A stretch of 64,000 nt of DNA from Mesostigma viride (taxonomy: Eukaryota > Streptophyta > Mesostigmatophyceae > Mesostigmatales > Mesostigmataceae): NCBI GenBank assembly GCA_009746045.1, contig RPFO01000078.1, positions 1,900,222-1,964,221 on the forward strand, given 5' to 3'. Numbering within the stretch: the first letter of the stretch is position 1; each line of letters opens with the position of its first letter. The translations under genes and the position numbers were made by a program. Of the stretch, positions 10 to 64,000 are shown one piece after another. The notes below the pieces were generated by a model, which saw only the letters and a program-made list of their open reading frames with translations, was not told the DNA's origin and did no database searches.

Positions 10-528
10 GTGGACATATATGGGGCATTCAGGTGGGTAGAGGAATACAGGGTCACATCAGTGGACTATGTGGCTGAGACAAAGAAATATGAGCTAGCCA
101 TCAAAGCACGTCCTGATGTCCAGCAGCTAGATCACAAGTTCTTGCTGCGTTCCTTCCTTGAGAAACTCAAACTTGACAAAAACACCTACGCTATGCTTGC
201 AACAGGAATGGCAAAGTACTGGGAGGACATGAAGGAGGCATTGGATTATATCAAGCTGGCCTTGGCTCCCCTTAGCCAGGGGGCCATGGGCACCTCTGTA
301 AAGAGGGTCAGGGGGGAGAGAGGGAGGAGGAGGATAGGGAGAGGGAAGACAGGAGCAAGAGACCTGTCCATGGCAGAAGTGAAGTCCCTGCTGGGACAAA
401 TGTTTAAGGGCAAGGGCAAGGGCAAGGGCAAGGGCAAGGGCAAGGGCAGGGGCTGGGGCAAGGGCAAGGGTAAGGGGCAGTCTCCCTCCAAGGGGGGCAG
501 CTCCAGCAACAACAACAACAACAGCAAC

Positions 529-14532: not shown

Positions 14533-14745
14533 ATATAGCGTAATAGCTTTGGAAAATTATATCAGCATCAGTGTGCGTTGTAGAAAGACGCGTCGATTGT
14601 GATATTCACGGCTCAATTCGGTGCTCAAACGTGAAAGTTATGAGCTCCGCCGTCAGCCATGGCTACCGGCTCGTGGCTCGTGGCCCTATAGCCATTGCCT
14701 TAAGGGCTCATAATAATCTTCCACCCCATGCCAGGTCTTAATTTA

Positions 14746-21392: not shown

Positions 21393-21404
21393 GAGGGGGA
21401 GATA
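21393..21404 (+). promoter_or_regulatory. Polypurine tract of the LTR element
   Basis: GAGGGGGAGATA abuts the right LTR and primes plus-strand synthesis in LTR elements. Confidence 0.8.
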
Positions 21405-22100
21405 TGTAACAACCAAATGTTACATCCAAAGTTTTCCTACTGGTGACCTTATTATGAGTTCTTGGGGACAATTATTTGGATAGTTAGGAGGCTTCGACGT
21501 ATGATTGATATTGGGCCTGCTGAGATCTGTCGAATTATTGTTCTACCCTCATTGGTCGTGGCCTGATCCACGTGGGGTACTTTGCATGGTTTAGTTCAGC
21601 CAGTCATAGATTCTCTTTAAGACTGTCGTACCTGGTGGATCTGGTTCCAGGTCACGGAGATTCTGTAGTGCTGGCCTTGTGTGTGTTGTGGATTCTGAGG
21701 ACAGGATCTTACCTTGAGTGATCCTCACTTTTGATTGGTTCTTTCGGGTTAGGGTTGAGCCGACTCTGCGTGCACGATGACTTTTATACTGTTTGTGGCG
21801 GCCGTGCATGTGTGCGTGAGAAGCTAAAGCTATGGTGTAATTCAAGGGTTTCCTTGTTTCATCAATCAAACAACCCTTGCCAAAAGTCAACTATAACTTC
21901 AACAGATAGTCGACTTGGATATAACTTGTCTGTTGTGTCTAACAAGGGTGGGGACTCAATCCCTTAACTGTTGAAGATCCATCTTCATTGCTTCTCTGGA
22001 CGTGAAGTTATCTGTCGAGACTCCAACCCAGGTATAAAGATCTTTTCACACCAATGTTGATACTGAGGCTGTTGCAAACACAACATTTTTAGTCGTTACA
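21405..22100 (+). repeat. 3' LTR
   Basis: 696 bp, followed by the ATTTA target duplication at 22,101-22,105. Confidence 0.93.
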
Positions 22101-23041: not shown

Positions 23042-38562
<15,521 letters not shown>

Positions 38563-40559: not shown

Positions 40560-43500
40560 ATGGCAACTAACAGAAACGCAAACGCGTTCAAGCCTGCCGC
40601 GGCAGTGGTGAAAGCGTTCCAGGCTTACCAAACAGCGCGTATCCAATTCGTCGAAAGTCTTGCCACATTTTTAACCAAGGTGGGTTGTAGTGGTTGCTAC
40701 CCAGGATGGCTCGCTGTTTGCATCACCCTTTTACATTTCTTGTACGTGGGTACGCTTATTCCCCTGCGCTATGGGCGGATTGTCTAGGAGATGTCACGCT
40801 CTGTGCGCTCGTCAATTAAGGATCATATTCCCGGCAGGTGTGTTAATGGTCACATTAGTTCACAAACTCGATCCGTCCGCGTCTCTGGTAAAATTGGTTG
40901 AACCATTCTGGCAGATTCTTGCAACTATTACATTGGACCGCTTCTCTTCCCATTAGGTATCTGATCTTATCAGATGCATATGCTATCAGCATACTCGTGG
41001 GTCGTCTAAACACTACGTGACCGACCTCCCAGGGCTGCAGCTGCCTCCGTTCGCTTACGACATGCTTTTCTATACCGGACAGGCTTGTTTTTTTTATCCC
41101 CTGTAAGTCCTTGTCTTTCATGCTATAGGCTTGTGATGATTTTCCCGTGTAAAATCGTTGTGTCTAGCACAAGTGACGACTGTACAAGTCTCTATCGTTT
41201 CCTGGCGCGGCTAGTGCCAGAACGTGTACCTTCCGAGTATGGATGCTGCCACCACCGACGAGTGCCGTGAAGGCTTCTCCTTTCAAGAAAGTTGTATTCT
41301 GTACTGAAAATTTTGGCGTGAAACGGTTTCTCTACATGCCCACCTGCAAATGTGTCAAGATTTAATTCTTCCTCCTTTCCCCCCCTTCCTTCTCCCCCCC
41401 TTCCCCGCTCTTACGGCTTAAGGTTATGTGCTACTAAGGTACATTTATCTCCTACCACAGTACGGGGAGCCACATGCTAGCACGGTGTCCACAACAATTG
41501 TGTCATCGTAGCTAGCACAGCCTCGCAGCCACGCTGCCCAACATGGCCACTAGCGTGTGAGTGTCTGTCTGTGTGTGTGTGTGTGTGCGCGCGCCCCATG
41601 AATTACCCCCACCCACCCACCCACCCACCCACCCACCCACCCACCCACCCACCCACCCACCCACCCACCCACCCACCCACCCACCCACCCACCCACCCAC
41701 CCACCCACCCACCCACCCACCCACCCACCCACCCACCCACCCACCCACCCACCCACCCACCCACCCACCCACCCACCCACCCACCCACCCACCCACCCAC
41801 CCCATCCTTTTTCCAGCGTTGCTCCACCCACCCACCCTTGTGTTCCCGACCACCACCCACCCGCCCTCTTCTTGAGGGAGGAGGTAATCTTTAATATATT
41901 CTTATAATATAGTATATCCTTATCCACCCGTTTGTTCATGCGTACGACGAGCGCGATGGAGGATTCATCGCCCATGCCACGGTTCCCCTGTGGGTGGCGG
42001 CGCCCATGCCGTGAACCAGTGGGACATATATCCGGACAGCTCCCTAGTATGAGAGGGCTGGGCGCGTGCGGGAGGATAGTTGCTAGTGCATTTGGTAAAC
42101 GGTGGCAATCAACAATGACACTGTGCCTAGGATGACTCACGCACACACATGGCCTTGTACGTTGCCACGTGCCATCGGTTCGGTGACGTTGGTTGGTTTA
42201 ATAATTTGCATTGCCACCCTAGCAACCACCTTCGTACTTGTCATCGTTGCGAGCTTCTCATCGTTGCGTGCTGCCAGCTATGGATCGCCTCGGGGCATGA
42301 TGACTGATGACCAGCCAAAGGGCAGCCCGATACCATTGGAATGAACTTCAAAAGTCTTGCCTTGCTTCTTGCTGGTGGCTGGCCTTTGCCTTGTGCCCAT
42401 ATGCAGGATGATCCGGCCCTGCTGGACTCGTTGCTTCACCTGGACATCCCTTCGCTGCTGTGCTGCCCGCTGATCCAAGACCCGGTGCCCGGGGTACAGG
42501 TGCCCAGCATTAATTGCCTCAAGTGAGTGCGTATGCCAGTGCCCCACATCACGCATCCACTGCCTCAAGCGAGTGCATGTGCCAGTGCCCAGCACTAGCT
42601 GCCTCAAGTGAACTCTGGGAAGTATGGAGTTTGGCCCCTTCAACGCGGGGTGTCCCTCCCAAAGCCTAGCGTGTGCGTGCGTGCCCATGTGTCCAACGTG
42701 ATTGTGTCTGCAAACGCCCATCACGCTGTGCTTGTTCTCACTAACGCATCGGGTCCATTAGCTATATAATGGCGAATGTCTATCAGCTACTATGGCAAAT
42801 GTACATCAGCTACTGTGACAAATGTCCGTTAGCTGCTGTATGGCAAATGTCTATCAGCTACTATGGCAAATGCGTAGTGTACAACAGCTACTGTGACAAA
42901 TGTCGGTTAGCTATCATGACAAATGTCCGTTAGCTGCTGTATGGCAAAGGTCGCTGTGTGGCCATGTCCAGCCATGAGGTAGCGTAGTGTCCTGTGTAGG
43001 GATGCATCCAAGGCAGTGTGTGGGGTTTGTACAGGGCCAAGTATTTGGCGATCGTGTGCATGGTGGGGGATGACAGCAGCAGCAGCAGGCGTGCAGGGGC
43101 TGGGGGGGACAGGGGGAGGGATTGGACGATGTGTTGTAGCACGCAATACACCGGAGTATTAGCGTGTAGTGCTTTAGATGGTCAATGCAGAGGAGCTGCA
43201 TCAGAACGTGCCATGGGCTATTGAGCTATGAGGCTACCGTGGGGTCGCGATGCATACTTGATCTCGCAATACCATGTCACGCAAGACTTGCATACCATGT
43301 CGCGATCCATCCTTGCTTGCCGATGCATGCGCCATCATCCCCCTGGTCCTTAGTAGTTCTGCGCTTCTCTTCCCTAGAACTGTGGGCTACTGGTTCCAAG
43401 ACTTGTTGCGCTTCGAACTCCCTTCAACTCGTCAGCGGGCCACTAGCACAGCTGACCGCAGACCAAATTTCTTGAATGCTGGTCGCTCCCTGCACCGCTC

Positions 43501-46500
43501 TTCGCCACGTCGTGGGTTGCATTGTGTACCATTGTGTGCCTCATGATTGTTCTGTGTGCTATCGTGGGCGTTGGCACGATAGCATCTTCGCACGCTAGCA
43601 TAACTGCTGCATCTCATGCCTGTCCTATGGGATATCGTCGGTGTTTGTGCCGTCAGCCACCTGCTGGGCCGTGTGGAAGGATTAGCGGACAACATCGCCG
43701 GGTCAGGCGTGCTGGACATCCTGGTGGGCAACCAGAGCCACACGACGCCCCAAGTGCGGCGCGCTGCACACCATTCCATCCACGTAGGTCCCTGGGGTGG
43801 TGGCAGTGGGGTGGTGGCTGTGGGGTGGTGGCAGTGGGGTGGTGGCAGTGGGGTGGTGGCAGTGGGGTGGTGGCAGTGGGGTGGTGGCTGTGGGGTGGTG
43901 GCTGTGGGGTGATGGCAGTGGGGTGGTGGCAGTGGGGTGATGGCAGTGGGGTGGTGGCAGTGGGGTGATGGCAGTGGGGTGATGGCACTAGTTGTTGAAA
44001 AATGGTGCAGACATCCTGGCTGAGTTCACGAAGCACATTCCTCTGGCTGCTGGCGCCGCAACATCCGCCCGGTTCTTTGCGCATGCCACCAATAATGGGC
44101 ACGAAGCAATGCCCTCTGCGCAACCTGCAAGCATGATTTCTGCACGCCTTGCAAGCAGCGTTGGGATGGTGGGCATGCCTCCTTCCAGTGTCGGTGGTGA
44201 CATGCAGGCTGAAGAAGAAATGCTCCGTCGAAAGCATTTTGCGGCATGTTCTTGGACTTCCTGTCATCCTTCACGTCCATTTCTCCTTCATCGCCCTGGA
44301 AGCCCTCTTCACTCAAACGTGTGTTCCACTCAGGTTGTCATACACACAGCCACATGTGCTGCGCTGTTTTGCACAATTTTCGTCTCCTCTCCCGTCACTG
44401 AAGCTCCTTGAACCCATCACCCACTCCCCCCATATATTGCAGTCAATGGCCGCACATTCCCCCAAGCTGGCCCTGTCAGTGCTCAAGGCGGGGGCCCTTC
44501 CTGCGATGGCGCGAGAGCTGGAGGTGGGTCTTGTGGACGCTGGGTCGCTGATTGCTCAGGGGTCTAGACCCGTTTGTGTCACTAGTGCTGGTGCTCAACG
44601 GTGCGCAAACTGGTGGTGGGGCTTGGGGTGCTGCTATTGGCGTGTCTAGTGGCTTCAGAACTTGTTTGGGTCGCTAGGAGCCTTGTTTGAGGGCGCGGGA
44701 TGGAGATACGTTTTGGATCGCGTGGACAAGGATAGCATGCACGTCAGTATGGGTGATGTTGGGAAAGAGCATGAGAATCGCGCGCCATCCCTCATCATTC
44801 ATTATTTGCTATCTACTATCCAGCTCAACAGCACAATAATGACGCAGTGAACATTCGTTTCTGATTTCGGACCCTCCGGCACCGGGGCTGCCCCTCGCCT
44901 GCATGCGCTGGCCTCGGCACCCTGCCTCGTCTTCACCCTGTGGATGTCTGCCAGGGCGTGGACGACTGGGACGTGAAGGAGTCGGCCGTGCTGGCACTGG
45001 ACGCGATGGCGCAGAGCGGGGAAGGTGAGGACCTGTGTGGCACGATGGGAAGCGAGCGGGGAACGTGGGGAACGCGCGATCCAGTGCTTGGGTGTCGGGT
45101 ACCCCACAAGACTCACGCGATCGATTACATAGCGGGGAACGCGCGCACCTGTGGCTGCTGGAATCTTATAACTTCCTGTCTCCCTTTTTTGCATTGCACG
45201 CCGTGCAGAGTCGACGTGGGCCCTCTTCGAGGACGATGCGGTGATTCGCATGGTCATCAGCTGCCTGGAGGACAGCCGCGCGTCGGTGCGTGGGGGGGGA
45301 TGAACGCACGCATGGTGGCAGACCATGGGTTGATGGGTGGGGGGTGATGAACACACGCATGGTGGCAGACCATGGGTTGGTGCGTGGGGGGTGATGAACA
45401 CACGCATGGTGGCAGACCATGGGTTGGCGGGTGGGGGGTGATGAACAATCGCATGGTGGCAGACCATGGGTTGGTGGGTCGGGGAGTGTCGAAATGAGCT
45501 CATGGAATTGTGTGTGCGCTGTGGGTTTTGAAGGCATTAGAGAATGAGAGGAACCGCATGCCTCCTTGTCGCTCGAATATCCTTGTTGGATGCGAGTCCC
45601 ATCTTTCTGGGCAACATCCATGTTGATGTCGGTACTTGCCTGGGGTCCACGATCAGTCAAGTCTCCCCCCCCCCCTCTACACACCCATCCTGTTTTCATG
45701 CTACTGTGCAGCGGGCTTTGCTTTCTGCGCTGGCACCAGAACGCTGCCTTGTTCTCCTGGCTCCCCCTTGAAAGCATCGCCCATTGATGCGCGCATCCTT
45801 TACAGCATCGCCCATCATCGCCCATTGATGTGCGTATCCTTTACAGCATCGCCCATCATTGCCCATTGATGTGCGCATCCTTTACAGCATCGCCCATCAT
45901 TACCCATGGATGTGCATCCTTTACAGCATCGCCCATCATCGCCCAGTGATGTGCGCATCCTTTACAGCATCGCCCATCATTACCCATTGATGTGCGCATC
46001 CTTTACAGCATCGCCCATCATTACCCATGGATGTGCATCCTTTACAGCATCGCCCATCATCGCCCAGTGATGTGCGCATCCTTTACAGCATCGCCCATCA
46101 TTACCCATTGATGCGCATCGTTTAAAGCATCAACAGCAACCGTTTGCTCCTCCCAAAGCTCTCCTCATGCTCCAGTTTTTTGGCTCTCTGCCCATTCTCC
46201 AACGGCGTGTGGCTGATTCTGGCGGCCGTGTCGCGGCCCGCAGGCTGGGTTCAGCAACGCGGTCCTCCAATTCCTCACGACAAGTGCATCTCATAGGTGA
46301 GCCATGTAAGGGTGAAGTAAGGCCAAGCTAAACTGGGCATGTAAAGTGGCTGACATGTGGTAGACAAGCGCATCTCATAGGTGAGCCGTGTAAGGGTGAA
46401 GTAAGGCCAAGCTAAACTGGTCATGTAAAGTGGCTGACATGTGGTAGACAAGCGCATCTCATAGGTGAGCCGTGGAAGGGTGAAGTAAGGCCAAGCTGAA

Positions 46501-47745
46501 CTGGGCATGTAAAGTGGCTGACATGTGGTAGACAAGCGCATCCTGCAGGTGGGTGCCAGGGATGCGCAAGGCAAACCCCTGATGGTGCTCAGGCAAGGGG
46601 AACACGCGCCAGACAATGGGCAGGCTGAGTGGCAGAATCGAAGGGGCCAGCACAATAGGGGGCAGTGCAACAGCGGCTGTGTGGCAGCTAGTTCCCGCTG
46701 TTTAGTATAAATAGGGTGCGCACTGGCAACGGAAGAGATGCGACGTGTATCGATGAGGCGGTTTAGTACCTGAAAGAGCACGTTCGTTAGGACCACGTCT
46801 GGCAACTAAAGAAATTCGAGGTTTATGGAGACTTCTTTTGCTGAGCAAGGCCCAGCCTAGTGTGGACAATTCATGACAACATAGAATCTATTTCGAAGGT
46901 AAATAACAGTTGTTAATCCTATACTATCGCAAAATCATAGACCTGGTCTCTTATTGTGATTGCAATCTTGGCTTTTTTCTTGGTCGGCAGTTTGAAAAAA
47001 ACCTAGTGTTGTTTGTCATTGCTTCCAATGGAACAGGTTATTTACGGCGTGCAGTAGAGCGCAGCGCGTGGCGCGTAGTTGTTCCGATGTCCCTTTGCTC
47101 GCCGGTGTCCGTACCCACCTCTACATCACAGCCTGCTGCGTGGTTCCCCCGCCCTATTCTCATGGCCGCAAGCCAAACCAGGGGGGGCTTTGCAAAGCCC
47201 TAGTCCCTTCCCCCTCGGGTCACCTCGTGGTTTTTGCCTGTACCGCCATGGTCATGGCTGGGTATGCTTTTCCACGCACCCACCTCCCTGGCCCCCTCAC
47301 ATGTCATCTCCTTCCGATGGATAACATGTCCCAAGGCCCCAGCCTACGGCTATGCGCACAATAATGGTTGCAGAGCAATGTCCCTGTCTATGTTTTTTAT
47401 CATATGACAAGCATACAAGAACAATGTCCCTGTCTATGTTTTTTATCATATGACAAGCATACATATGACAAGCATACAAGAACAATGTCCCTGTCTGTGT
47501 TTTACATATGACAAGCATAGATTACATTGCTGCACTATCTGCAGGTGTGGTAATGTGCACTGTACATGCGTGCTGACAGTGTTGCATATGGCACATGATT
47601 GCTTGCGTCCACCCTGCCCCCCCTCGCATGTGCATGCGCTTGTCCCCTTGCGTGAATGCAGTGAGGACTTGGCCATTCGTCTTGTGGCATTTGATGCGCT
47701 GCCCGCGCTGGAGTCCGTGCTCAGCAGCCCCAAAACTGCGATCCG
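40560..47745 (+). CDS. Armadillo-repeat protein, PF16/SPAG6-like, 3' end beyond window
   Basis: Divergent relative of the flagellar central-apparatus protein PF16/SPAG6. Exons: 40560-40679, 42407-42522, 43657-43783, 44443-44523, 44955-45024, 45209-45285, probably 45712-45768, 46244-46296, and 47662-47745. Splice sites and phases fit through 45285. VVKAFQAYQTARIQFVESLA matches the PF16 N-terminus (VLQVFEQYQKAR.QFVQ). Then come ARM repeats: VQVPSINCLNHLLGR, EGLADNIAGSGVLDILV, AAHSPKLALSVLKAGALP, DWDVKESAVLALDAMAQ, VIRMVISCLED, AGFSNAVLQFL and EDLAIRLVAFDALPALESVL, at the spacing of the SPAG6 repeats. Two gaps remain: the 45712-45768 exon is followed by TGA with no GT donor, and an exon between 46297 and 47661 was not found. 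PF16 is normally very conserved, so this is a paralogue or a decaying copy. Confidence 0.75.
41607..41803 (+). repeat. CCCA tetranucleotide run in intron 1 of the PF16-like gene
   Basis: About 49 perfect ACCC/CCCA units, preceded by a TG run (41,560-41,590). The opposite strand is (TGGG)n and could form G-quadruplexes. Thr-His-Pro and Gly-Trp-Val ORFs across it are artefacts. Confidence 0.97.
42500..42615 (+). repeat. Tandem copies of exon 2 end plus donor
   Basis: The exon end GTGCCCAGCATTAATTGCC with CTCAA/GTGAGTGC (donor at 42,523) is followed by diverged copies: TGCCTCAAGCGAGTGC at 42,561-42,576, and GTGCCCAGCACTAGCTGCC with CTCAAGTGAAC at 42,585-42,613. Confidence 0.8.
42765..42955 (+). 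repeat. ~27-bp minisatellite in intron 2 of the PF16-like gene
   Basis: Seven or so variants of GGCAAATGTCTATCAGCTAC / GACAAATGTCCGTTAGCTG. Confidence 0.85.
43790..43984 (+). repeat. G-rich 15-bp minisatellite at the start of intron 3
   Basis: Units of GGGGTGGTGGCAGTG / GGGGTGATGGCAGTG start eight bases after the donor at 43,784. On the sense strand this is G-quadruplex-prone RNA. Confidence 0.92.
45012..45150 (+). repeat. Diverged copies of an exon end plus donor
   Basis: The exon end AGAGCGGGGAAG/GTGAGG (donor 45,025) is echoed at 45,052-45,078 (GCGAGCGGGGAACGTGGGG) and 45,131-45,146 (AGCGGGGAACGCGCGC). Confidence 0.6.
45286..45485 (+). repeat. 47-bp minisatellite beginning at a splice donor
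   Basis: Four units start at the donor itself: TCG/GTGCGTGGGGGG, then GATGAACACACGCATGG and CAGACCATGGGTTG. Later units restart with GGTGCGTGGGGGG or GGGTGGGGGG, so donor-like sequence recurs every 47 bases. Confidence 0.93.
45772..46130 (+). repeat. 42-bp minisatellite with acceptor-like CTTTACAG
   Basis: About eight to nine units of CAGCATCGCCCATCATNNCC followed by CATTGATGTGCGCATCCTTTA. Each unit carries TTTACAG, an acceptor-like sequence. Confidence 0.92.
46244..46560 (+). repeat. 84-bp tandem repeat spanning an exon end and its donor
   Basis: The exon end GCATCTCATAG/GTGAGCC (46,296/46,297) is repeated with a perfect 84-base period at 46,380/46,381 and 46,464/46,465. A fourth, altered junction lies at 46,548/46,549 (CATCCTGCAG/GTGGGT). 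Each unit holds an intact donor. Confidence 0.95.
47368..47520 (+). repeat. ~54-bp direct repeat, about three copies
   Basis: CAATGTCCCTGTCTATG, a T run and ATATGACAAGCATACA are repeated with one partial duplication. The repeat lies in the intron before the last visible exon. Confidence 0.9.
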
Positions 47746-50700
47746 GTACGCCCTAGCACCACCTGCTTGATCCGGTACGGCCTAGCACCACCTGCTTGAT
47801 CCGGTACGCCCTAGCACCACCTGCTTGATCCGGTACGCCCTAGCACCACCTGCTTGATCCGGTACGACCTAGCACCACCTGCTTGATCCGGTACGGCCTA
47901 GCACCACCTGCTTGATCCGGTACGGCCCTAGCACCACCTGCTTGATCCGGTACGGCCTAGCACCACCTGCTTGATCCGGTACGCCCTAGCACCACCTGCT
48001 TGATCCGGTACGGCCTAGCACCACCTGCTTGATCCGGTACGGCCCTAGCACCACCTGCTTGATCCGGTACGGCCTAGCACCACCTGCTTGATCCGGTACG
48101 GCCTAGCACCACCTGCTTGATCCGGTACGGCCTAGCACCACCTGCTTGATCCGGTACGGCCTAGCACCACCTGCTTGATCTGGTACGCCCTAGCACCACC
48201 TGCTTGATCCGGTACGCCCTAGCACCACCTGCTTGATCCGGTACGGCCTAGCACCACCTGCTTGATCCGGTACGGCCTAGCACCACCTGCTTGATCCGGT
48301 ACGGCCCTAGCACCACCTGCTTGATCCGGTACGCCCTAGCACCACCTGCTTGATCCGGTACGGCCTAGCACCACCTGCTTGATCCGGTACGCCCTAGCAC
48401 CACCTGCTTGATCCGGTACGGCCTAGCACCACCTGCTTGATCCGGTACGCCCTAGCACCACCTGCTTGATCCGGTACGGCCTAGCACCACCTGCTTGATC
48501 CGGTACGGCCTAGCACCACCTGCTTGATCCGGTACGCCCTAGCACCACCTGCTTGATCCGGTACGCCCTAGCACCACCTGCTTGATCCGGTACGGCCTAG
48601 CACCACCTGCTTGATCCGGTACGGCCCTAGCACCACCTGCTTGATCCGGTACGCCCTAGCACCACCTGCTTGATCCGGTACGCCTAGCACCACCTGCTTG
48701 ATCCGGTACGGCCTAGCACCACCTGCTTGATCCGGTACGGCCCTAGCACCACCTGCTTGATCCGGTACGGCCTAGCACCACCTGCTTGATCCGGTACGGC
48801 CTAGCACCACCTGCTTGATCCGGTACGCCCTAGCACCACCTGCTTGATCCGGTACGGCCTAGCACCACCTGCTTGATCCGGTACGGCCTAGCACCACCTG
48901 CTTGATCCGGTACGGCCTAGCACCACCTGCTTGATCCGGTACGCCCTAGCACCACCTGCTTGATCCGGTACGGCCTAGCACCACCTGCTTGATCCGGTAC
49001 GCCCTAGCACCACCTGCTTGATCCGGTACGCCCTAGCACCACCTGCTTGATCCGGTACGCCCTAGCACCACCTGCTTGATCCGGTACGGCCTAGCACCAC
49101 CTGCTTGATCCGGTACGCCCTAGCACCACCTGCTTGATCCGGTACGCCCTAGCACCACCTGCTTGATCCGGTACGCCTAGCACCACCTGCTTGATCCGGT
49201 ACGGCCTAGCACCACCTGCTTGATCCGGTACGGCCCTAGCACCACCTGCTTGATCCGGTACGGCCTAGCACCACCTGCTTGATCCGGTACGCCCTAGCAC
49301 CACCTGCTTGATCCGGTACGGCCTAGCACCACCTGCTTGATCCGGTACGGCCCTAGCACCACCTGCTTGATCCGGTACGGCCTAGCACCACCTGCTTGAT
49401 CCGGTACGCCCTAGCACCACCTGCTTGATCCGGTACGCCTAGCACCACCTGCTTGATCCGGTACGGCCTAGCACCACCTGCTTGATCCGGTACGGCCCTA
49501 GCACCACCTGCTTGATCCGGTACGGCCTAGCACCACCTGCTTGATCCGGTACGCCCTAGCACCACCTGCTTGATCCGGTACGGCCTAGCACCACCTGCTT
49601 GATCCGGTACGGCCCTAGCACCACCTGCTTGATCCGGTACGGCCTAGCACCACCTGCTTGATCCGGTACGGCCTAGCACCACCTGCTTGATCCGGTACGG
49701 CCTAGCACCACCTGCTTGATCCGGTACGCCCTAGCACCACCTGCTTGATCCGGTACGCCCTAGCACCACCTGCTTGATCCGGTACGGCCTAGCACCACCT
49801 GCTTGATCCGGTACGCCCTAGCACCACCTGCTTGATCCGGTACGCCCTAGCACCACCTGCTTGATCCGGTACGCCCTAGCACCACCTGCTTGATCCGGTA
49901 CGGCCTAGCACCACCTGCTTGATCCGGTACGCCCTAGCACCACCTGCTTGATCCGGTACGGCCTAGCACCACCTGCTTGATCCGGTACGGCCTAGCACCA
50001 CCTGCTTGATCCGGTACGCCCTAGCACCACCTGCTTGATCCGGTACGGCCCTAGCACCACCTGCTTGATCCGGTACGCCCTAGCACCACCTGCTTGATCC
50101 GGTACGGCCTAGCACCACCTGCTTGATCCGGTACGGCCTAGCACCACCTGCTTGATCCGGTACGGCCTAGCACCACCTGCTTGATCCGGTACGGCCTAGC
50201 ACCACCTGCTTGATCCGGTACGCCCTAGCACCACCTGCTTGATCCGGTACGCCCTAGCACCACCTGCTTGATCCGGTACGCCCTAGCACCACCTGCTTGA
50301 TCCGGTACGCCCTAGCACCACCTGCTTGATCCGGTACGGCCCTAGCACCACCTGCTTGATCCGGTACGCCCTAGCACCACCTGCTTGATCCGGTACGGCC
50401 TAGCACCACCTGCTTGATCCGGTACGGCCTAGCACCACCTGCTTGATCCGGTACGCCCTAGCACCACCTGCTTGATCCGGTACGGCCTAGCACCACCTGC
50501 TTGATCCGGTACGCCCTAGCACCACCTGCTTGATCCGGTACGGCCTAGCACCACCTGCTTGATCCGGTACGGCCTAGCACCACCTGCTTGATCCGGTACG
50601 CCCTAGCACCACCTGCTTGATCCGGTACGCCCTAGCACCACCTGCTTGATCCGGTACGGCCTAGCACCACCTGCTTGATCCGGTACGGCCCTAGCACCAC

Positions 50701-53700
50701 CTGCTTGATCCGGTACGCCTAGCACCACCTGCTTGATCCGGTACGGCCTAGCACCACCTGCTTGATCCGGTACGGCCCTAGCACCACCTGCTTGATCCGG
50801 TACGGCCTAGCACCACCTGCTTGATCCGGTACGGCCTAGCACCACCTGCTTGATCCGGTACGCCCTAGCACCACCTGCTTGATCCGGTACGGCCTAGCAC
50901 CACCTGCTTGATCCGGTACGGCCTAGCACCACCTGCTTGATCCGGTACGGCCTAGCACCACCTGCTTGATCCGGTACGCCCTAGCACCACCTGCTTGATC
51001 CGGTACGCCCTAGCACCACCTGCTTGATCCGGTACGCCTAGCACCACCTGCTTGATCCGGTACGGCCTAGCACCACCTGCTTGATCCGGTACGGCCCTAG
51101 CACCACCTGCTTGATCCGGTACGGCCTAGCACCACCTGCTTGATCCGGTACGCCCTAGCACCACCTGCTTGATCCGGTACGGCCTAGCACCACCTGCTTG
51201 ATCCGGTACGGCCCTAGCACCACCTGCTTGATCCGGTACGGCCTAGCACCACCTGCTTGATCCGGTACGCCCTAGCACCACCTGCTTGATCCGGTACGCC
51301 TAGCACCACCTGCTTGATCCGGTACGGCCTAGCACCACCTGCTTGATCCGGTACGGCCCTAGCACCACCTGCTTGATCCGGTACGGCCTAGCACCACCTG
51401 CTTGATCCGGTACGCCCTAGCACCACCTGCTTGATCCGGTACGGCCTAGCACCACCTGCTTGATCCGGTACGGCCCTAGCACCACCTGCTTGATCCGGTA
51501 CGGCCTAGCACCACCTGCTTGATCCGGTACGGCCTAGCACCACCTGCTTGATCCGGTACGGCCTAGCACCACCTGCTTGATCCGGTACGCCCTAGCACCA
51601 CCTGCTTGATCCGGTACGCCCTAGCACCACCTGCTTGATCCGGTACGGCCTAGCACCACCTGCTTGATCCGGTACGCCCTAGCACCACCTGCTTGATCCG
51701 GTACGCCCTAGCACCACCTGCTTGATCCGGTACGCCCTAGCACCACCTGCTTGATCCGGTACGGCCTAGCACCACCTGCTTGATCCGGTACGCCCTAGCA
51801 CCACCTGCTTGATCCGGTACGGCCTAGCACCACCTGCTTGATCCGGTACGCCCTAGCACCACCTGCTTGATCCGGTACGCCCTAGCACCACCTGCTTGAT
51901 CCGGTACGCCCTAGCACCACCTGCTTGATCCGGTACGCCCTAGCACCACCTGCTTGATCCGGTACGGCCTAGCACCACCTGCTTGATCCGGTACGGCCCT
52001 AGCACCACCTGCTTGATCCGGTACGGCCTAGCACCACCTGCTTGATCCGGTACGGCCTAGCACCACCTGCTTGATCCGGTACGGCCTAGCACCACCTGCT
52101 TGATCCGGTACGGCCTAGCACCACCTGCTTGATCCGGTACGCCCTAGCACCACCTGCTTGATCCGGTACGCCCTAGCACCACCTGCTTGATCCGGTACGC
52201 CCTAGCACCACCTGCTTGATCCGGTACGGCCTAGCACCACCTGCTTGATCCGGTACGCCCTAGCACCACCTGCTTGATCCGGTACGCCCTAGCACCACCT
52301 GCTTGATCCGGTACGGCCTAGCACCACCTGCTTGATCCGGTACGCCCTAGCACCACCTGCTTGATCCGGTACGGCCTAGCACCACCTGCTTGATCCGGTA
52401 CGGCCTAGCACCACCTGCTTGATCCGGTACGGCCTAGCACCACCTGCTTGATCCGGTACGGCCTAGCACCACCTGCTTGATCCGGTACGGCCTAGCACCA
52501 CCTGCTTGATCCGGTACGCCCTAGCACCACCTGCTTGATCCGGTACGCCCTAGCACCACCTGCTTGATCCGGTACGCCCTAGCACCACCTGCTTGATCCG
52601 GTACGGCCCTAGCACCACCTGCTTGATCCGGTACGGCCTAGCACCACCTGCTTGATCCGGTACGGCCTAGCACCACCTGCTTGATCCGGTACGCCCTAGC
52701 ACCACCTGCTTGATCCGGTACGCCCTAGCACCACCTGCTTGATCCGGTACGGCCTAGCACCACCTGCTTGATCCGGTACGCCCTAGCACCACCTGCTTGA
52801 TCCGGTACGGCCTAGCACCACCTGCTTGATCCGGTACGGCCTAGCACCACCTGCTTGATCCGGTACGCCCTAGCACCACCTGCTTGATCCGGTACGGCCT
52901 AGCACCACCTGCTTGATCCGGTACGGCCTAGCACCACCTGCTTGATCCGGTACGCCCTAGCACCACCTGCTTGATCCGGTACGCCCTAGCACCACCTGCT
53001 TGATCCGGTACGCCCTAGCACCACCTGCTTGATCCGGTACGGCCTAGCACCACCTGCTTGATCCGGTACGCCCTAGCACCACCTGCTTGATCCGGTACGC
53101 CCTAGCACCACCTGCTTGATCCGGTACGGCCTAGCACCACCTGCTTGATCCGGTACGGCCCTAGCACCACCTGCTTGATCCGGTACGCCCTAGCACCACC
53201 TGCTTGATCCGGTACGCCCTAGCACCACCTGCTTGATCCGGTACGGCCTAGCACCACCTGCTTGATCCGGTACGCCCTAGCACCACCTGCTTGATCCGGT
53301 ACGGCCTAGCACCACCTGCTTGATCCGGTACGGCCCTAGCACCACCTGCTTGATCCGGTACGCCCTAGCACCACCTGCTTGATCCGGTACGGCCTAGCAC
53401 CACCTGCTTGATCCGGTACGGCCTAGCACCACCTGCTTGATCCGGTACGGCCTAGCACCACCTGCTTGATCCGGTACGGCCTAGCACCACCTGCTTGATC
53501 CGGTACGGCCTAGCACCACCTGCTTGATCCGGTACGCCCTAGCACCACCTGCTTGATCCGGTACGCCCTAGCACCACCTGCTTGATCCGGTACGCCCTAG
53601 CACCACCTGCTTGATCCGGTACGCCCTAGCACCACCTGCTTGATCCGGTACGGCCTAGCACCACCTGCTTGATCCGGTACGCCCTAGCACCACCTGCTTG

Positions 53701-56700
53701 ATCCGGTACGCCCTAGCACCACCTGCTTGATCCGGTACGGCCTAGCACCACCTGCTTGATCCGGTACGCCCTAGCACCACCTGCTTGATCCGGTACGCCC
53801 TAGCACCACCTGCTTGATCCGGTACGGCCTAGCACCACCTGCTTGATCCGGTACGGCCCTAGCACCACCTGCTTGATCCGGTACGGCCTAGCACCACCTG
53901 CTTGATCCGGTACGCCCTAGCACCACCTGCTTGATCCGGTACGCCCTAGCACCACCTGCTTGATCCGGTACGCCCTAGCACCACCTGCTTGATCCGGTAC
54001 GCCCTAGCACCACCTGCTTGATCCGGTACGGCCCTAGCACCACCTGCTTGATCCGGTACGGCCCTAGCACCACCTGCTTGATCCGGTACGCCCTAGCACC
54101 ACCTGCTTGATCCGGTACGCCCTAGCACCACCTGCTTGATCCGGTACGGCCTAGCACCACCTGCTTGATCCGGTACGGCCCTAGCACCACCTGCTTGATC
54201 CGGTACGGCCTAGCACCACCTGCTTGATCCGGTACGCCCTAGCACCACCTGCTTGATCCGGTACGGCCCTAGCACCACCTGCTTGATCCGGTACGGCCCT
54301 AGCACCACCTGCTTGATCCGGTACGGCCCTAGCACCACCTGCTTGATCCGGTACGGCCTAGCACCACCTGCTTGATCCGGTACGCCCTAGCACCACCTGC
54401 TTGATCCGGTACGGCCCTAGCACCACCTGCTTGATCCGGTACGGCCCTAGCACCACCTGCTTGATCCGGTACGGCCTAGCACCACCTGCTTGATCCGGTA
54501 CGGCCCTAGCACCACCTGCTTGATCCGGTACGGCCCTAGCACCACCTGCTTGATCCGGTACGGCCCTAGCACCACCTGCTTGATCCGGTACGGCCTAGCA
54601 CCACCTGCTTGATCCGGTACGGCCCTAGCACCACCTGCTTGATCCGGTACGGCCCTAGCACCACCTGCTTGATCCGGTACGGCCCTAGCACCACCTGCTT
54701 GATCCGGTACGGCCTAGCACCACCTGCTTGATCCGGTACGGCCCTAGCACCACCTGCTTGATCCGGTACGGCCCTAGCACCACCTGCTTGATCCGGTACG
54801 GCCTAGCACCACCTGCTTGATCCGGTACGGCCTAGCACCACCTGCTTGATCCGGTACGGCCTAGCACCACCTGCTTGATCCGGTACGGCCCTAGCACCAC
54901 CTGCTTGATCCGGTACGCCCTAGCACCACCTGCTTGATCCGGTACGCCCTAGCACCACCTGCTTGATCCGGTACGGCCTAGCACCACCTGCTTGATCCGG
55001 TACGCCCTAGCACCACCTGCTTGATCCGGTACGGCCTAGCACCACCTGCTTGATCCGGTACGCCCTAGCACCACCTGCTTGATCCGGTACGGCCTAGCAC
55101 CACCTGCTTGATCCGGTACGCCCTAGCACCACCTGCTTGATCCGGTACGGCCTAGCACCACCTGCTTGATCCGGTACGCCCTAGCACCACCTGCTTGATC
55201 CGGTACGGCCTAGCACCACCTGCTTGATCCGGTACGCCCTAGCACCACCTGCTTGATCCGGTACGGCCTAGCACCACCTGCTTGATCCGGTACGGCCTAG
55301 CACCACCTGCTTGATCCGGTACGCCCTAGCACCACCTGCTTGATCCGGTACGGCCTAGCACCACCTGCTTGATCCGGTACGGCCTAGCACCACCTGCTTG
55401 ATCCGGTACGCCCTAGCACCACCTGCTTGATCCGGTACGGCCTAGCACCACCTGCTTGATCCGGTACGGCCCTAGCACCACCTGCTTGATCCGGTACGCC
55501 CTAGCACCACCTGCTTGATCCGGTACGGCCTAGCACCACCTGCTTGATCCGGTACGGCCCTAGCACCACCTGCTTGATCCGGTACGCCCTAGCACCACCT
55601 GCTTGATCCGGTACGGCCTAGCACCACCTGCTTGATCCGGTACGCCTAGCACCACCTGCTTGATCCGGTACGGCCTAGCACCACCTGCTTGATCCGGTAC
55701 GGCCCTAGCACCACCTGCTTGATCCGGTACGCCCTAGCACCACCTGCTTGATCCGGTACGGCCTAGCACCACCTGCTTGATCCGGTACGCCCTAGCACCA
55801 CCTGCTTGATCCGGTACGGCCTAGCACCACCTGCTTGATCCGGTACGGCCTAGCACCACCTGCTTGATCCGGTACGCCCTAGCACCACCTGCTTGATCCG
55901 GTACGGCCTAGCACCACCTGCTTGATCCGGTACGGCCTAGCACCACCTGCTTGATCCGGTACGCCCTAGCACCACCTGCTTGATCCGGTACGGCCTAGCA
56001 CCACCTGCTTGATCCGGTACGGCCTAGCACCACCTGCTTGATCCGGTACGCCCTAGCACCACCTGCTTGATCCGGTACGGCCTAGCACCACCTGCTTGAT
56101 CCGGTACGCCCTAGCACCACCTGCTTGATCCGGTACGCCCTAGCACCACCTGCTTGATCCGGTACGGCCTAGCACCACCTGCTTGATCCGGTACGGCCTA
56201 GCACCACCTGCTTGATCCGGTACGGCCTAGCACCACCTGCTTGATCCGGTACGGCCTAGCACCACCTGCTTGATCCGGTACGGCCTAGCACCACCTGCTT
56301 GATCCGGTACGCCCTAGCACCACCTGCTTGATCCGGTACGCCCTAGCACCACCTGCTTGATCCGGTACGGCCTAGCACCACCTGCTTGATCCGGTACGCC
56401 CTAGCACCACCTGCTTGATCCGGTACGCCCTAGCACCACCTGCTTGATCCGGTACGGCCCTAGCACCACCTGCTTGATCCGGTACGCCCTAGCACCACCT
56501 GCTTGATCCGGTACGCCCTAGCACCACCTGCTTGATCCGGTACGCCCTAGCACCACCTGCTTGATCCGGTACGGCCTAGCACCACCTGCTTGATCCGGTA
56601 CGGCCCTAGCACCACCTGCTTGATCCGGTACGGCCTAGCACCACCTGCTTGATCCGGTACGCCTAGCACCACCTGCTTGATCCGGTACGCCCTAGCACCA

Positions 56701-59700
56701 CCTGCTTGATCCGGTACGCCCTAGCACCACCTGCTTGATCCGGTACGCCCTAGCACCACCTGCTTGATCCGGTACGGCCCTAGCACCACCTGCTTGATCC
56801 GGTACGGCCCTAGCACCACCTGCTTGATCCGGTACGGCCCTAGCACCACCTGCTTGATCCGGTACGGCCCTAGCACCACCTGCTTGATCCGGTACGGCCT
56901 AGCACCACCTGCTTGATCCGGTACGCCCTAGCACCACCTGCTTGATCCGGTACGGCCTAGCACCACCTGCTTGATCCGGTACGGCCCTAGCACCACCTGC
57001 TTGATCCGGTACGGCCCTAGCACCACCTGCTTGATCCGGTACGGCCCTAGCACCACCTGCTTGATCCGGTACGGCCTAGCACCACCTGCTTGATCCGGTA
57101 CGGCCTAGCACCACCTGCTTGATCCGGTACGGCCTAGCACCACCTGCTTGATCCGGTACGCCTAGCACCACCTGCTTGATCCGGTACGGCCTAGCACCAC
57201 CTGCTTGATCCGGTACGGCCCTAGCACCACCTGCTTGATCCGGTACGGCCTAGCACCACCTGCTTGATCCGGTACGCCCTAGCACCACCTGCTTGATCCG
57301 GTACGGCCTAGCACCACCTGCTTGATCCGGTACGGCCTAGCACCACCTGCTTGATCCGGTACGGCCCTAGCACCACCTGCTTGATCCGGTACGGCCCTAG
57401 CACCACCTGCTTGATCCGGTACGCCCTAGCACCACCTGCTTGATCCGGTACGGCCTAGCACCACCTGCTTGATCCGGTACGGCCCTAGCACCACCTGCTT
57501 GATCCGGTACGGCCTAGCACCACCTGCTTGATCCGGTACGGCCTAGCACCACCTGCTTGATCCGGTACGGCCTAGCACCACCTGCTTGATCCGGTACGCC
57601 CTAGCACCACCTGCTTGATCCGGTACGCCCTAGCACCACCTGCTTGATCCGGTACGGCCTAGCACCACCTGCTTGATCCGGTACGCCCTAGCACCACCTG
57701 CTTGATCCGGTACGCCCTAGCACCACCTGCTTGATCCGGTACGCCCTAGCACCACCTGCTTGATCCGGTACGGCCTAGCACCACCTGCTTGATCCGGTAC
57801 GGCCTAGCACCACCTGCTTGATCCGGTACGGCCTAGCACCACCTGCTTGATCCGGTACGGCCTAGCACCACCTGCTTGATCCGGTACGGCCTAGCACCAC
57901 CTGCTTGATCCGGTACGGCCCTAGCACCACCTGCTTGATCCGGTACGCCCTAGCACCACCTGCTTGATCCGGTACGGCCTAGCACCACCTGCTTGATCCG
58001 GTACGGCCTAGCACCACCTGCTTGATCCGGTACGGCCTAGCACCACCTGCTTGATCCGGTACGGCCTAGCACCACCTGCTTGATCCGGTACGGCCCTAGC
58101 ACCACCTGCTTGATCCGGTACGCCCTAGCACCACCTGCTTGATCCGGTACGCCCTAGCACCACCTGCTTGATCCGGTACGGCCTAGCACCACCTGCTTGA
58201 TCCGGTACGGCCTAGCACCACCTGCTTGATCCGGTACGGCCTAGCACCACCTGCTTGATCCGGTACGGCCTAGCACCACCTGCTTGATCCGGTACGGCCT
58301 AGCACCACCTGCTTGATCCGGTACGGCCTAGCACCACCTGCTTGATCCGGTACGCCTAGCACCACCTGCTTGATCCGGTACGCCCTAGCACCACCTGCTT
58401 GATCCGGTACGCCCTAGCACCACCTGCTTGATCCGGTACGGCCTAGCACCACCTGCTTGATCCGGTACGGCCTAGCACCACCTGCTTGATCCGGTACGCC
58501 CTAGCACCACCTGCTTGATCCGGTACGGCCTAGCACCACCTGCTTGATCCGGTACGGCCTAGCACCACCTGCTTGATCCGGTACGCCCTAGCACCACCTG
58601 CTTGATCCGGTACGGCCTAGCACCACCTGCTTGATCCGGTACGCCCTAGCACCACCTGCTTGATCCGGTACGCCCTAGCACCACCTGCTTGATCCGGTAC
58701 GGCCCTAGCACCACCTGCTTGATCCGGTACGCCCTAGCACCACCTGCTTGATCCGGTACGCCCTAGCACCACCTGCTTGATCCGGTACGGCCTAGCACCA
58801 CCTGCTTGATCCGGTACGGCCCTAGCACCACCTGCTTGATCCGGTACGGCCTAGCACCACCTGCTTGATCCGGTACGCCCTAGCACCACCTGCTTGATCC
58901 GGTACGCCCTAGCACCACCTGCTTGATCCGGTACGGCCCTAGCACCACCTGCTTGATCCGGTACGGCCTAGCACCACCTGCTTGATCCGGTACGGCCTAG
59001 CACCACCTGCTTGATCCGGTACGGCCTAGCACCACCTGCTTGATCCGGTACGGCCCTAGCACCACCTGCTTGATCCGGTACGGCCTAGCACCACCTGCTT
59101 GATCCGGTACGCCCTAGCACCACCTGCTTGATCCGGTACGGCCTAGCACCACCTGCTTGATCCGGTACGCCCTAGCACCACCTGCTTGATCCGGTACGGC
59201 CCTAGCACCACCTGCTTGATCCGGTACGCCCTAGCACCACCTGCTTGATCCGGTACGGCCTAGCACCACCTGCTTGATCCGGTACGGCCCTAGCACCACC
59301 TGCTTGATCCGGTACGGCCTAGCACCACCTGCTTGATCCGGTACGCCCTAGCACCACCTGCTTGATCCGGTACGCCTAGCACCACCTGCTTGATCCGGTA
59401 CGCCCTAGCACCACCTGCTTGATCCGGTACGCCCTAGCACCACCTGCTTGATCCGGTACGGCCCTAGCACCACCTGCTTGATCCGGTACGGCCCTAGCAC
59501 CACCTGCTTGATCCGGTACGCCCTAGCACCACCTGCTTGATCCGGTACGGCCTAGCACCACCTGCTTGATCCGGTACGGCCTAGCACCACCTGCTTGATC
59601 CGGTACGGCCCTAGCACCACCTGCTTGATCCGGTACGCCCTAGCACCACCTGCTTGATCCGGTACGGCCCTAGCACCACCTGCTTGATCCGGTACGCCCT

Positions 59701-62700
59701 AGCACCACCTGCTTGATCCGGTACGGCCCTAGCACCACCTGCTTGATCCGGTACGGCCCTAGCACCACCTGCTTGATCCGGTACGGCCTAGCACCACCTG
59801 CTTGATCCGGTACGGCCCTAGCACCACCTGCTTGATCCGGTACGGCCCTAGCACCACCTGCTTGATCCGGTACGGCCCTAGCACCACCTGCTTGATCCGG
59901 TACGGCCTAGCACCACCTGCTTGATCCGGTACGGCCCTAGCACCACCTGCTTGATCCGGTACGCCCTAGCACCACCTGCTTGATCCGGTACGGCCTAGCA
60001 CCACCTGCTTGATCCGGTACGGCCTAGCACCACCTGCTTGATCCGGTACGGCCCTAGCACCACCTGCTTGATCCGGTACGGCCTAGCACCACCTGCTTGA
60101 TCCGGTACGCCCTAGCACCACCTGCTTGATCCGGTACGGCCCTAGCACCACCTGCTTGATCCGGTACGGCCCTAGCACCACCTGCTTGATCCGGTACGGC
60201 CTAGCACCACCTGCTTGATCCGGTACGGCCTAGCACCACCTGCTTGATCCGGTACGGCCCTAGCACCACCTGCTTGATCCGGTACGGCCTAGCACCACCT
60301 GCTTGATCCGGTACGCCCTAGCACCACCTGCTTGATCCGGTACGGCCCTAGCACCACCTGCTTGATCCGGTACGCCCTAGCACCACCTGCTTGATCCGGT
60401 ACGGCCTAGCACCACCTGCTTGATCCGGTACGGCCTAGCACCACCTGCTTGATCCGGTACGCCTAGCACCACCTGCTTGATCCGGTACGCCCTAGCACCA
60501 CCTGCTTGATCCGGTACGGCCTAGCACCACCTGCTTGATCCGGTACGCCTAGCACCACCTGCTTGATCCGGTACGGCCTAGCACCACCTGCTTGATCCGG
60601 TACGCCCTAGCACCACCTGCTTGATCCGGTACGGCCTAGCACCACCTGCTTGATCCGGTACGGCCTAGCACCACCTGCTTGATCCGGTACGCCCTAGCAC
60701 CACCTGCTTGATCCGGTACGGCCTAGCACCACCTGCTTGATCCGGTACGGCCCTAGCACCACCTGCTTGATCCGGTACGCCTAGCACCACCTGCTTGATC
60801 CGGTACGGCCCTAGCACCACCTGCTTGATCCGGTACGGCCTAGCACCACCTGCTTGATCCGGTACGGCCCTAGCACCACCTGCTTGATCCGGTACGGCCT
60901 AGCACCACCTGCTTGATCCGGTACGCCTAGCACCACCTGCTTGATCCGGTACGGCCTAGCACCACCTGCTTGATCCGGTACGGCCTAGCACCACCTGCTT
61001 GATCCGGTACGGCCTAGCACCACCTGCTTGATCCGGTACGGCCTAGCACCACCTGCTTGATCCGGTACGCCCTAGCACCACCTGCTTGATCCGGTACGGC
61101 CTAGCACCACCTGCTTGATCCGGTACGGCCTAGCACCACCTGCTTGATCCGGTACGGCCCTAGCACCACCTGCTTGATCCGGTACGCCCTAGCACCACCT
61201 GCTTGATCCGGTACGGCCTAGCACCACCTGCTTGATCCGGTACGGCCTAGCACCACCTGCTTGATCCGGTACGCCCTAGCACCACCTGCTTGATCCGGTA
61301 CGGCCTAGCACCACCTGCTTGATCCGGTACGGCCCTAGCACCACCTGCTTGATCCGGTACGGCCTAGCACCACCTGCTTGATCCGGTACGGCCTAGCACC
61401 ACCTGCTTGATCCGGTACGGCCTAGCACCACCTGCTTGATCCGGTACGCCCTAGCACCACCTGCTTGATCCGGTACGGCCTAGCACCACCTGCTTGATCC
61501 GGTACGCCCTAGCACCACCTGCTTGATCCGGTACGCCTAGCACCACCTGCTTGATCCGGTACGGCCTAGCACCACCTGCTTGATCCGGTACGGCCTAGCA
61601 CCACCTGCTTGATCCGGTACGCCCTAGCACCACCTGCTTGATCCGGTACGCCCTAGCACCACCTGCTTGATCCGGTACGCCCTAGCACCACCTGCTTGAT
61701 CCGGTACGGCCTAGCACCTGCTTGATCCGGTACGCCTAGCACCACTGCTTGATCCGGTACGCCTAGCACCACCTGCTTGATCCGGTACGGCCCTAGCACC
61801 ACCTGCTTGATCCGGTACGCCCTAGCACCACCTGCTTGATCCGGTACGCCTAGCACCACCTGCTTGATCCGGTACGGCCTAGCACCACCTGCTTGATCCG
61901 GTACGGCCCTAGCACCACCTGCTTGATCCGGTACGGCCTAGCACCACCTGCTTGATCCGGTACGCCCTAGCACCACCTGCTTGATCCGGTACGCCCTAGC
62001 ACCACCTGCTGATCCGGTACGGCCCTAGCACCCTGCTTGATCCGGTACGCCCTAGCACCACCTGCTTGATCCGGTACGGCCCTAGCACCACCTGCTTGAT
62101 CCGGTACGGCCTAGCACCACCTGCTTGATCCGGTACGCCCTAGCACCACCTGCTTGATCCGGTACGGCCTAGCACCACCTGCTTGATCCGGTACGGCCCT
62201 AGCACCACCTGCTTGATCCGGTACGCCTAGCACCACCTGCTTGATCCGGTACGCCCTAGCACCACCTGCTTGATCCGGTACGGCCTAGCACCACCTGCTT
62301 GATCCGGTACGCCCTAGCACCACCTGCTTGATCCGGTACGGCCCTAGCACCACCTGCTTGATCCGGTACGGCCTAGCACCACCTGCTTGATCCGGTACGC
62401 CCTAGCACCACCTGCTTGATCCGGTACGCCCTAGCACCACCTGCTTGATCCGGTACGGCCTAGCACCACCTGCTTGATCCGGTACGCCCTAGCACCACCT
62501 GCTTGATCCGGTACGGCCTAGCACCACCTGCTTGATCCGGTAACGCCCTAGCACCACCTGCTTGATCCGGTACGGCCTAGCACCACCTGCTTGATCCGGT
62601 ACGGCCTAGCACCACCTGCTTGATCCGGTACGGCCTAGCACTACCTGCTTGATCCGGTACGCCTAGCACCACCTGCTTGATCCGGTACGCCTAGCACCAC

Positions 62701-64000
62701 CTGCTTGATCCGGTACGCCTAGCACCACCTGCTTGATCCGGTACGGCCCTAGCACCACCTGCTTGATCCGGTACGCCCTAGCACCACCTGCTTGATCCGG
62801 TACGCCCTAGCACCACCCTGCTTGATCCGGTACGGCCCTAGCACCACCTGCTTGATCCGGTACGGCCCCTAGCACCACCTGCTTGATCCGGTACGGCCCT
62901 AGCACCACCTGCTTGATCCGGTACGCCGCCTAGCACCACCTGCTTGATCCGTACGGCCCTAGCACCACCTGCTTGATCCGGTACGGCCTAGCACACCTGC
63001 TTGATCCGGTACGCCCTAGCACCACCTGCTTGATCCGGTACGGCCCTAGCACCACCTGCTTGATCCGGTACGGGCCCTAGCACCACCTGCTTGATCCGGT
63101 ACGGCCTAGCACCAGCCTGCTTGATCCCGGTAACGGCCCTAGCACCACCTGCTTGATCCGGACGCCCTAGCACCACCTGCTTGATCCGGTACGGCCCTAG
63201 CACCACCTGCTTGATCCGGTACGGCCCTACACCACCTGCTGATCCGGTACGGCCCTAGCACCACCTGCTTGATCCGTACGGCCCTAGCACCACCTGCTGA
63301 TCCGGTACGGCCCTAGCACTACCTGCTTGATCCGGTACGGCCTAGCACCACCTGCTTGATCCGGTACGGCCCTAGCACCAACCTGCTTGATCCGGTACGG
63401 CCTAAGCGTACCTGCTTGAATCGGTACGCTAGCACCACCTGCTTGATCCGGTACGCCCTAGCACCACCTGCTTGATCCGGTACGGCCTAGCCCACCTGCT
63501 TGATCGGTACGGCCTAGCACCAACCTGCTTGATCGGTACGCGCTAGCACCACCTGCTTGATCCGGTATGGCCCTAGCACCACCATGCTTGATCTGGTACG
63601 CCTAGCACACCTGCTTGATCCGGTACGCCCTAGCACCACCTGCTTGATCCGGTACGGCCTAGCACTCACCTGCTTGATCCGGTACGCCCTAGCACCACCT
63701 GCTTGATTCCGGGTAGCGGCTACACCACCTGCTTGTCCGGTACGGCCCTAGCACCCCTGCTTGATCCGGTACGGCCTAGCACCACCTGCTTGATCCGGTA
63801 CGGCTAGCACACCTGCTTGATCCGGTACGCCTAGCACCACCTGCTTGACCGGTACGCCTAGCACCACCTGCTTGATCCGGTACGGCCCTAGCACCACCTG
63901 CTTGATCCGGTACGCCCTAGCACCACTGCTTGATCCGGTCGGCTAGCACCACCTGCTTGATCCGGTACGGGCCCTAGCACAACCATGCTTGATCCGGGTA
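47740..64000 (+). repeat. 16.2-kb tandem array of 28-30-bp units, each with the upstream exon's donor
   Basis: Unit GATCCG/GTACGNCCTAG plus CACCACCTGCTT. The four common forms are GTACGGCCTAG and GTACGCCCTAG (29 bp), GTACGGCCCTAG (30 bp) and GTACGCCTAG (28 bp). There are roughly 550 units by length, running off the window end. The array starts exactly at the exon end 47,745: the exon's final GATCCG and the donor GTACGCC are the first repeat copy. From about 61,700, and strongly from 62,900, units show many random one-base indels and substitutions. There are no spacers, so this is not a CRISPR array. Confidence 0.97.

Follow-up and report, generated by a model that had tools for sequence, protein, structure and literature searches.

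A 16-kb intronic array that repeats its own exon's 5′ splice site in a FAP194-like gene of Mesostigma viride

The human gene IFI6 (also called 6-16 or G1P3) contains a minisatellite that reportedly consists of 26 copies of a 12-nt unit. It is known as a splice-donor minisatellite (Turri, Cuin and Porter 1995, NAR 23:1854, as cited in PMC4526556 and PMC2572611), and according to the excerpted text two downstream repeat units serve as donors, with three messenger RNA (mRNA) species (PMC4526556). Here we describe what appears to be the same kind of object in Mesostigma viride (Streptophyta), within a 64,000-nt stretch of contig RPFO01000078.1 (assembly GCA_009746045.1, positions 1,900,222 to 1,964,221 of the forward strand; hereafter the window). 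The array lies in intron 8 of a FAP194-like gene, and its 28-30-bp unit repeats the last six bases of exon 8 together with the 5′ splice site, or donor. As far as the excerpts on IFI6 go, the two share a tandem array adjoining an exon, a unit that holds a 5′ splice site and many donors in a row, and IFI6 would be the nearest known case. They differ in scale and setting: the Mesostigma array has at least ~558 copies of 29 bp, lies in a cilium gene, is predicted to truncate the protein if a downstream donor is used, and is accompanied by similar small repeats at further donors, whereas the IFI6 case, as excerpted, is small and single.

Introns can also be gained by tandem genomic duplication, for example in potato RdRp (PMC4974935, excerpt), a process that is alike in that a duplication including a splice signal alters intron structure. 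In the excerpted account the duplicated piece gives rise to a new intron, whereas in the present case duplication of a junction that already existed lengthens its intron, the unit supplying a donor and the acceptor lying beyond the window. In Drosophila, kl-3 and kl-5 are axonemal genes. The giant satellite introns of these Y genes (PMC6508621; PMC11207136) resemble the present locus in placing satellite arrays within introns of axonemal genes; they are of megabase scale and their excerpts mention no donor-containing unit, whereas here 16 kb is visible and the unit is the donor. Long introns have been described in algae, conspicuously so in the core-Reinhardtinia (PMC8226300) and with a mean length of 788 bp (merged annotation) in a snow alga (PMC11228838), in excerpts that do not mention donor-spanning arrays, and PMC1877881, by its excerpt, concerns the regulation of competing splice sites rather than equal tandem donors. 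Donor minisatellites, giant satellite introns and intron gain by duplication are thus known, while the titles and abstract openings of the matches listed contained no algal donor-spanning arrays, no donor-spanning repeats at several introns and no single array of this size.

Exon 8 (47662..47745, + strand, 84 nt) ends GCGATCCG/GTACGC, where the solidus marks the splice site, and the junction letters ACTGCGATCCG/GTACGCCCTAG are present in the sequence. The original prediction had described a ~16-kb array of ~550 units, each copying the end of this exon and its donor, and that observation holds. From the junction GATCCG/GTACGC onward, 16.26 kb form a single array of 28-30-bp units (47740..64000, + strand), as established by Tandem Repeats Finder, unit typing and junction alignment. 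Tandem Repeats Finder calls one array at 47740-63997 (period 29, 558.2 copies, 96% matches), which starts within the last six bases of exon 8 and makes up the right quarter of the window. Exact copies of GATCCGGTACG number 543, and the 542 intervals between them measure 29 bp in 403 cases, 30 bp in 97 and 28 bp in 26. Four unit types (223, 178, 94 and 22) account for 517 of the 542 units. A typical unit reads GATCCG/GTACG(G/C)(C)CCTAGCACCACCTGCTT, and most of the variation falls at one spot just past the donor, where GTACG is followed by G or C and by one C more or fewer.

The array unit therefore repeats the last six exon bases and the donor. Aligned to the array units CCTGCTTGATCCG, the exon sequence ACTGC--GATCCG has six exact bases in common, or ten with a 2-nt gap, and the exon-8 junction scores 37 against its own intron, a value matched by none of 200 windows taken elsewhere and none of 400 dinucleotide shuffles. 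The locus thus has the features of a splice-donor minisatellite, namely tandem units of minisatellite length and a 5′ splice site match in each unit. It adjoins a coding exon on the intron side, as had been predicted, and its first unit is the exon's donor, according to the gene model rather than to complementary DNA. A search with the array unit (containing one N) found no exact match in viral_contigs or genome_contigs, collections of viruses and prokaryotes from which the alga's own genome may be absent, so that this result says little.

The order of the unit variants bears on whether the array is authentic. Among the first 476 units, one string of 31 variants occurs twice, 64 units apart, while the longest recurrence in 100 shuffles was 13 units. 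A block duplication of this kind is the trace left by unequal exchange and not by read errors, and the array is therefore probably real; the repeated block also fits the unequal exchange that had been proposed earlier. No unit departs from the four types in any of twelve 1-kb bins between 48740 and 60739 (~34 units per bin), and the ~410 units of this interval show no change outside the variable spot, which indicates very recent or very efficient homogenisation, or else polishing. Deviant units then rise to 17 of 25 in 62740-63739, and the error-rich last ~1.3 kb of the array looks like a poorly supported contig end. Because of this contig-like end, and because the array is still open where the window stops, 16 kb and ~558 copies are a minimum. 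Both the terminal error burst and the lack of private variants over 12 kb would suit an array whose length or homogeneity came from misassembled or polished long reads. That explanation is highly improbable given the repeated 31-unit block, even though the lag autocorrelation of the variants (0.446 at lag 95) was not above the shuffle maximum (0.446), and given the smaller arrays of the same anatomy that lie in unique sequence.

By sequence, the donors of the array are equivalent, as the original prediction proposed: the real donor CCGGTACGC and the array donor types have equal pairing with the 5′ end of U1 (-4.3 to -4.5 kcal/mol), an equivalence limited to sequence. The accompanying claim that downstream donors would add multiples of 28-30 nt to the mRNA was right in kind and understated the outcome. 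The first 60 CCGGTACG sites comprise the real donor and 59 others, every one of which brings an in-frame stop after seven extra residues, and for this reason the first donor must mostly be used, provided that this allele of the gene is expressed. An expectation set nearer to IFI6 would be that some downstream donor units are used as well. The array was also considered as protein-coding sequence and rejected on account of the in-frame stop after seven residues.

Could the array itself have a function? Its donors might act as sites for the U1 small nuclear ribonucleoprotein that guard against premature polyadenylation in a long intron (telescripting), promote nuclear retention of the pre-mRNA or tune expression through decoy splicing. 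In green algae, TGTAA is the poly(A) signal. The interval 47746-62700 has 513 GTACG, no TGTAA and no AATAAA, compared with 10 TGTAA and no AATAAA in the preceding 9245 nt, and U1 pairing of the array donors is as strong as that of the real donor. U1 protection of transcripts has been described in human, mouse and Drosophila (PMC5499120, excerpt). However, a lack of poly(A) signals is trivial for a 29-bp unit, and 7 of 11 older junction copies at the other donors described below pair more weakly with U1 than the respective real donor, the remaining 4 (two in intron 6 and two in intron 7) being no weaker. A functional donor array is thus very unlikely, and decay of donor copies is common, not general.

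The host gene was modelled from the sequence and checked by reading frame, phases and splice ends. Its eight exons on the + strand have agreeing phases, no internal stop and GT-AG at all internal boundaries. They are located at 40560..40679 (exon 1, start codon at 40560 assumed; donor CCAAG/GTGGGT), 42407..42522 (exon 2; CTCAA/GTGAGT), 43657..43783 (exon 3; ATCCAC/GTAGGT), 44443..44523 (exon 4; CTGGAG/GTGGGT), 44955..45024 (exon 5; GGGAAG/GTGAGG), 45209..45285 (exon 6; GCGTCG/GTGCGT) and 46244..46296 (exon 7; CATAG/GTGAGC), followed by exon 8; exons 2, 6 and 7 are based on the gene model and homology, exon 8 on reading frame and homology. The 243-residue product matches residues 21-239 of FAP194 (PDB 7n6g_1D; E=1.8e-35), a green-algal PF16/SPAG6 relative with armadillo/HEAT repeats, and more weakly SPAG6 (1.9e-21) and PF16 (6.9e-19); Pfam HEAT is found at 3.3e-08. 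The PF16-like label given originally is thus corrected: by homology the host is closer to FAP194 than to PF16, and of axonemal armadillo type. As a FAP194, its product would be expected in the ciliary central apparatus. A protein model built earlier, which had included 'RALLSALA' near 45712, gave way to one with the exon at 46244-46296, which fits FAP194 and the phases. With that earlier, partly wrong model as query, none of 7999 candidate homologous proteins scored at E<=0.001.

FAP194 is 571 residues long and the window encodes the N-terminal 243 only, as would be found if the gene were dead or truncated, with the array outside any productive transcript, exons 9 onward lost and constraint absent. 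This is unlikely, since all eight exons keep their phases and GT-AG ends and lack an internal stop, and the window simply ends within the array. Placement of the exon-8 end relies on the reading frame, with homology as a less firm second support. Direct alignment to FAP194 stops nine residues short of it (query 234 of 243), and designed armadillo proteins align up to residue 240. A chimeric query, in which window exons 7-8 are continued by FAP194 residues, crosses the exon end ungapped in one designed armadillo protein (domain/repeat scores 10.8-12.6 bits); against FAP194 208-285 it covers the exon end, FAP194 being two residues longer (78 versus 76). These alignments suggest that the coding end at exon 8 is probably old and, since the exon's frame fits the armadillo repeat, probably older than the array.

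The original prediction missed smaller, more diverged donor copies in the same gene and in a neighbouring SET-domain gene on the opposite strand. Each junction of the two genes (windows of up to 30 exon and 12 intron nt) was compared with the neighbouring intron over at most 600 nt, using 400 dinucleotide shuffles per junction. Copies of the donor junction further down its own intron were found for 7 of 15 donors at p<0.01 (FAP194 exons 2, 5, 6, 7 and 8; SET exons 1 and 2) and for 8 of 15 at p<0.05, whereas acceptors gave 0 of 14 and 1 of 14, respectively (donors versus acceptors at p<0.01, Fisher p=0.0063, post hoc). With a fixed score cut of 22 the counts were 8/15 and 0/14. At neither threshold did any exon 3′ end match its upstream intron (0/14) or any exon 5′ end its downstream intron (0/15). 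The exon part of the copies ranges from 6 to 35 nt; alignments of exon-relative 12..25 at offset +12..+25 match the junction to itself and were left out. Copies at different donors are different sequences, each with its own unit, and across the two genes in the window no single family occurs at many introns, as introner-like elements would.

Within the FAP194-like gene (all + strand), the exon-2 end and donor recur in two degenerate copies at 42553..42611, with 16-17 exon nt each (scores 46 and 27; p=0.0025), and degenerate copies of the exon-5 junction lie at 45043-45071 and 45128-45153 (p=0.005). A 47-bp x 4.3 array extends from the exon-6 donor (45285..45484; p=0.0025), its unit aligning to the donor and the final 23 nt of the exon, and the first unit of an 84-bp x 3.1 array (46279..46542; scores 76 and 71; p=0.0025) opens with the 18 nt that close exon 7, followed by the donor. 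The exon-4 junction has a weak copy at 44610-44628 (p=0.015), and exon 1 is without a donor copy. Intron 3 (exon-3 junction, p=0.87) holds a 14-bp array found by Tandem Repeats Finder at 43793-43987, 9 nt into the intron and without exon bases; it may have arisen by the same process and since lost its exon part, or may be unrelated. Separately, a 41-bp array at 45775-46131 in intron 6 has a unit that repeats an acceptor-like TTTACAG; the true acceptor, at 46244, lies more than 100 nt away.

An unrelated satellite that expanded in, or moved into, intron 8 and came to adjoin the exon by chance would make the common GATCCG/GTACG a coincidence. The exon part in common is only six exact nt, the intron-3 array likewise adjoins a donor without exon bases, SET intron 5 is filled by large simple arrays, and the direct FAP194 alignment falls short of the last nine residues. 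Set against these points, the exon-8 frame fits an armadillo repeat up to the exon end and, with the chimeric query, across it, and junction copies reach p<0.01 at six other donors, where the unit differs from donor to donor. Coincidence therefore seems quite improbable.

Taken together, these results favour a model, which we consider probable, in which the intron-8 array is a donor-spanning intronic minisatellite, produced by tandem duplication across 5′ splice sites that is recurrent and tolerated by virtue of the kept first donor. The array would have begun as a short tandem duplication spanning the junction of exon 8 with intron 8, and would then have been amplified, through unequal exchange or replication slippage, to at least ~558 copies of the 29-bp unit, almost every one of which contains a complete 5′ splice site. 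Duplication over a donor would leave the exon and the first donor intact. Splicing would take place at this exon-attached donor, through exon definition on the 84-nt exon and by virtue of its being transcribed first, and later copies would remain silent within the intron, be removed with it and be free to amplify or decay. The smaller junction duplications are more diverged and so probably older, as if the same process had recurred in these genes. Duplication of an acceptor would instead offer an earlier AG and change the mRNA, which may be why acceptor duplications are missing. Under such first-site rules, if they hold, the donor/acceptor asymmetry would be explained without a special mutation mechanism, selection being its presumed cause.

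Several observations weigh against this model. The pattern was noticed in the same sequences before testing, so that all p-values are post hoc; tandem repeats are common in these introns anyway, and random intron positions predict copies at 4.9 of 15 donors compared with the 8 seen (P=0.039 only). Seven of the 15 donors miss the 0.05 level (FAP194 introns 1 and 3; SET introns 3-7), the SET gene alone gives 2/7 donors and 0/7 acceptors, and its intron-6 donor scores 22 in a wider window with p=0.14 in the shuffle test. On the acceptor side, FAP194 intron 4 reaches p=0.035, and intron 3 has a score of 18 that none of 100 simple shuffles reached (p=0.28 with dinucleotide shuffles). A small control, a hAT-like transposase gene in the window, had copies at 0 of 2 donors (simple shuffles). 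The exon-8 donor is the weakest of 15 by U1 pairing, the others ranging from -4.5 to -10.5 kcal/mol, and when equal duplicate 5′ splice sites competed in classic experiments, splicing often preferred the intron-proximal one, which runs counter to use of the first donor. Finally, the far end of the array and the downstream exons lie beyond the window.

The SET-domain gene (- strand; Pfam SET 1.5e-09) has eight exons found, with agreeing phases. Exon S1 (38296..38469; donor GTGCCG/GTACGT) is preceded by an acceptor, such that earlier exons may exist, and a degenerate copy of its junction is located at 38039-38073 (p=0.0025). Exon S2 (37181..37278; donor GAGAG/GTGCGT) has a degenerate copy of its end at 36819-36854 (p=0.0025). 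Exons S3-S8 (35936-35852, 34491-34368, 33479-33331, 24812-24653, 24012-23957 and 23602-23042) span 23042..35936, and the five donors of S3-S7 have no significant junction copy. Intron 5 (8.5 kb) consists mostly of (ACACAA)n, with 1131.8 copies at 26356-33146 (and 25564-26355), beside blocks of ACGCTC, ACGCGA and, by eye, ACACCG; the neighbouring gene, too, thus has a giant-array intron.

Elsewhere in the window, direct repeats of ~700 bp at 14744-15445 and 21403-22100 (96% identical) flank a 6-kb interior and look like the long terminal repeats (LTRs) of an element. Positions 1-5150, in which a KGKGKG run, a (CAA)n tract and a reading frame near 4870-5060 were seen by eye, are presumably LTR-retrotransposon-like pol sequence, the frame near 4870-5060 being, we assume, PHD-finger-like. 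A reading frame with two apparent introns at 6854-9407 is, by resemblance, what we take to be the hAT-like transposase.

The intron-8 array bears on how the spliceosome chooses among equal donors. Within a single intron, hundreds of 5′ splice sites that are nearly identical would compete naturally, at a scale hard to build artificially, and a downstream choice would be punished by a stop. Support for the donor-copy pattern comes from two genes. A wider proposal, a donor ratchet, is tentative, and we hold it to be less probable than not. Introns of this genome would lengthen by recurrent donor duplications, which would be fixed as co-transcriptional splicing keeps the first donor, while acceptor duplications would be purged because the first acceptor would win and alter the mRNA. 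The 16-kb array would then be the runaway outcome of a directional mode of intron lengthening that acts across the genome, with exon-derived copies decaying to ordinary intron. If general, this would provide a simple, testable way for introns to lengthen and would explain decayed copies of exon ends in new intron DNA.

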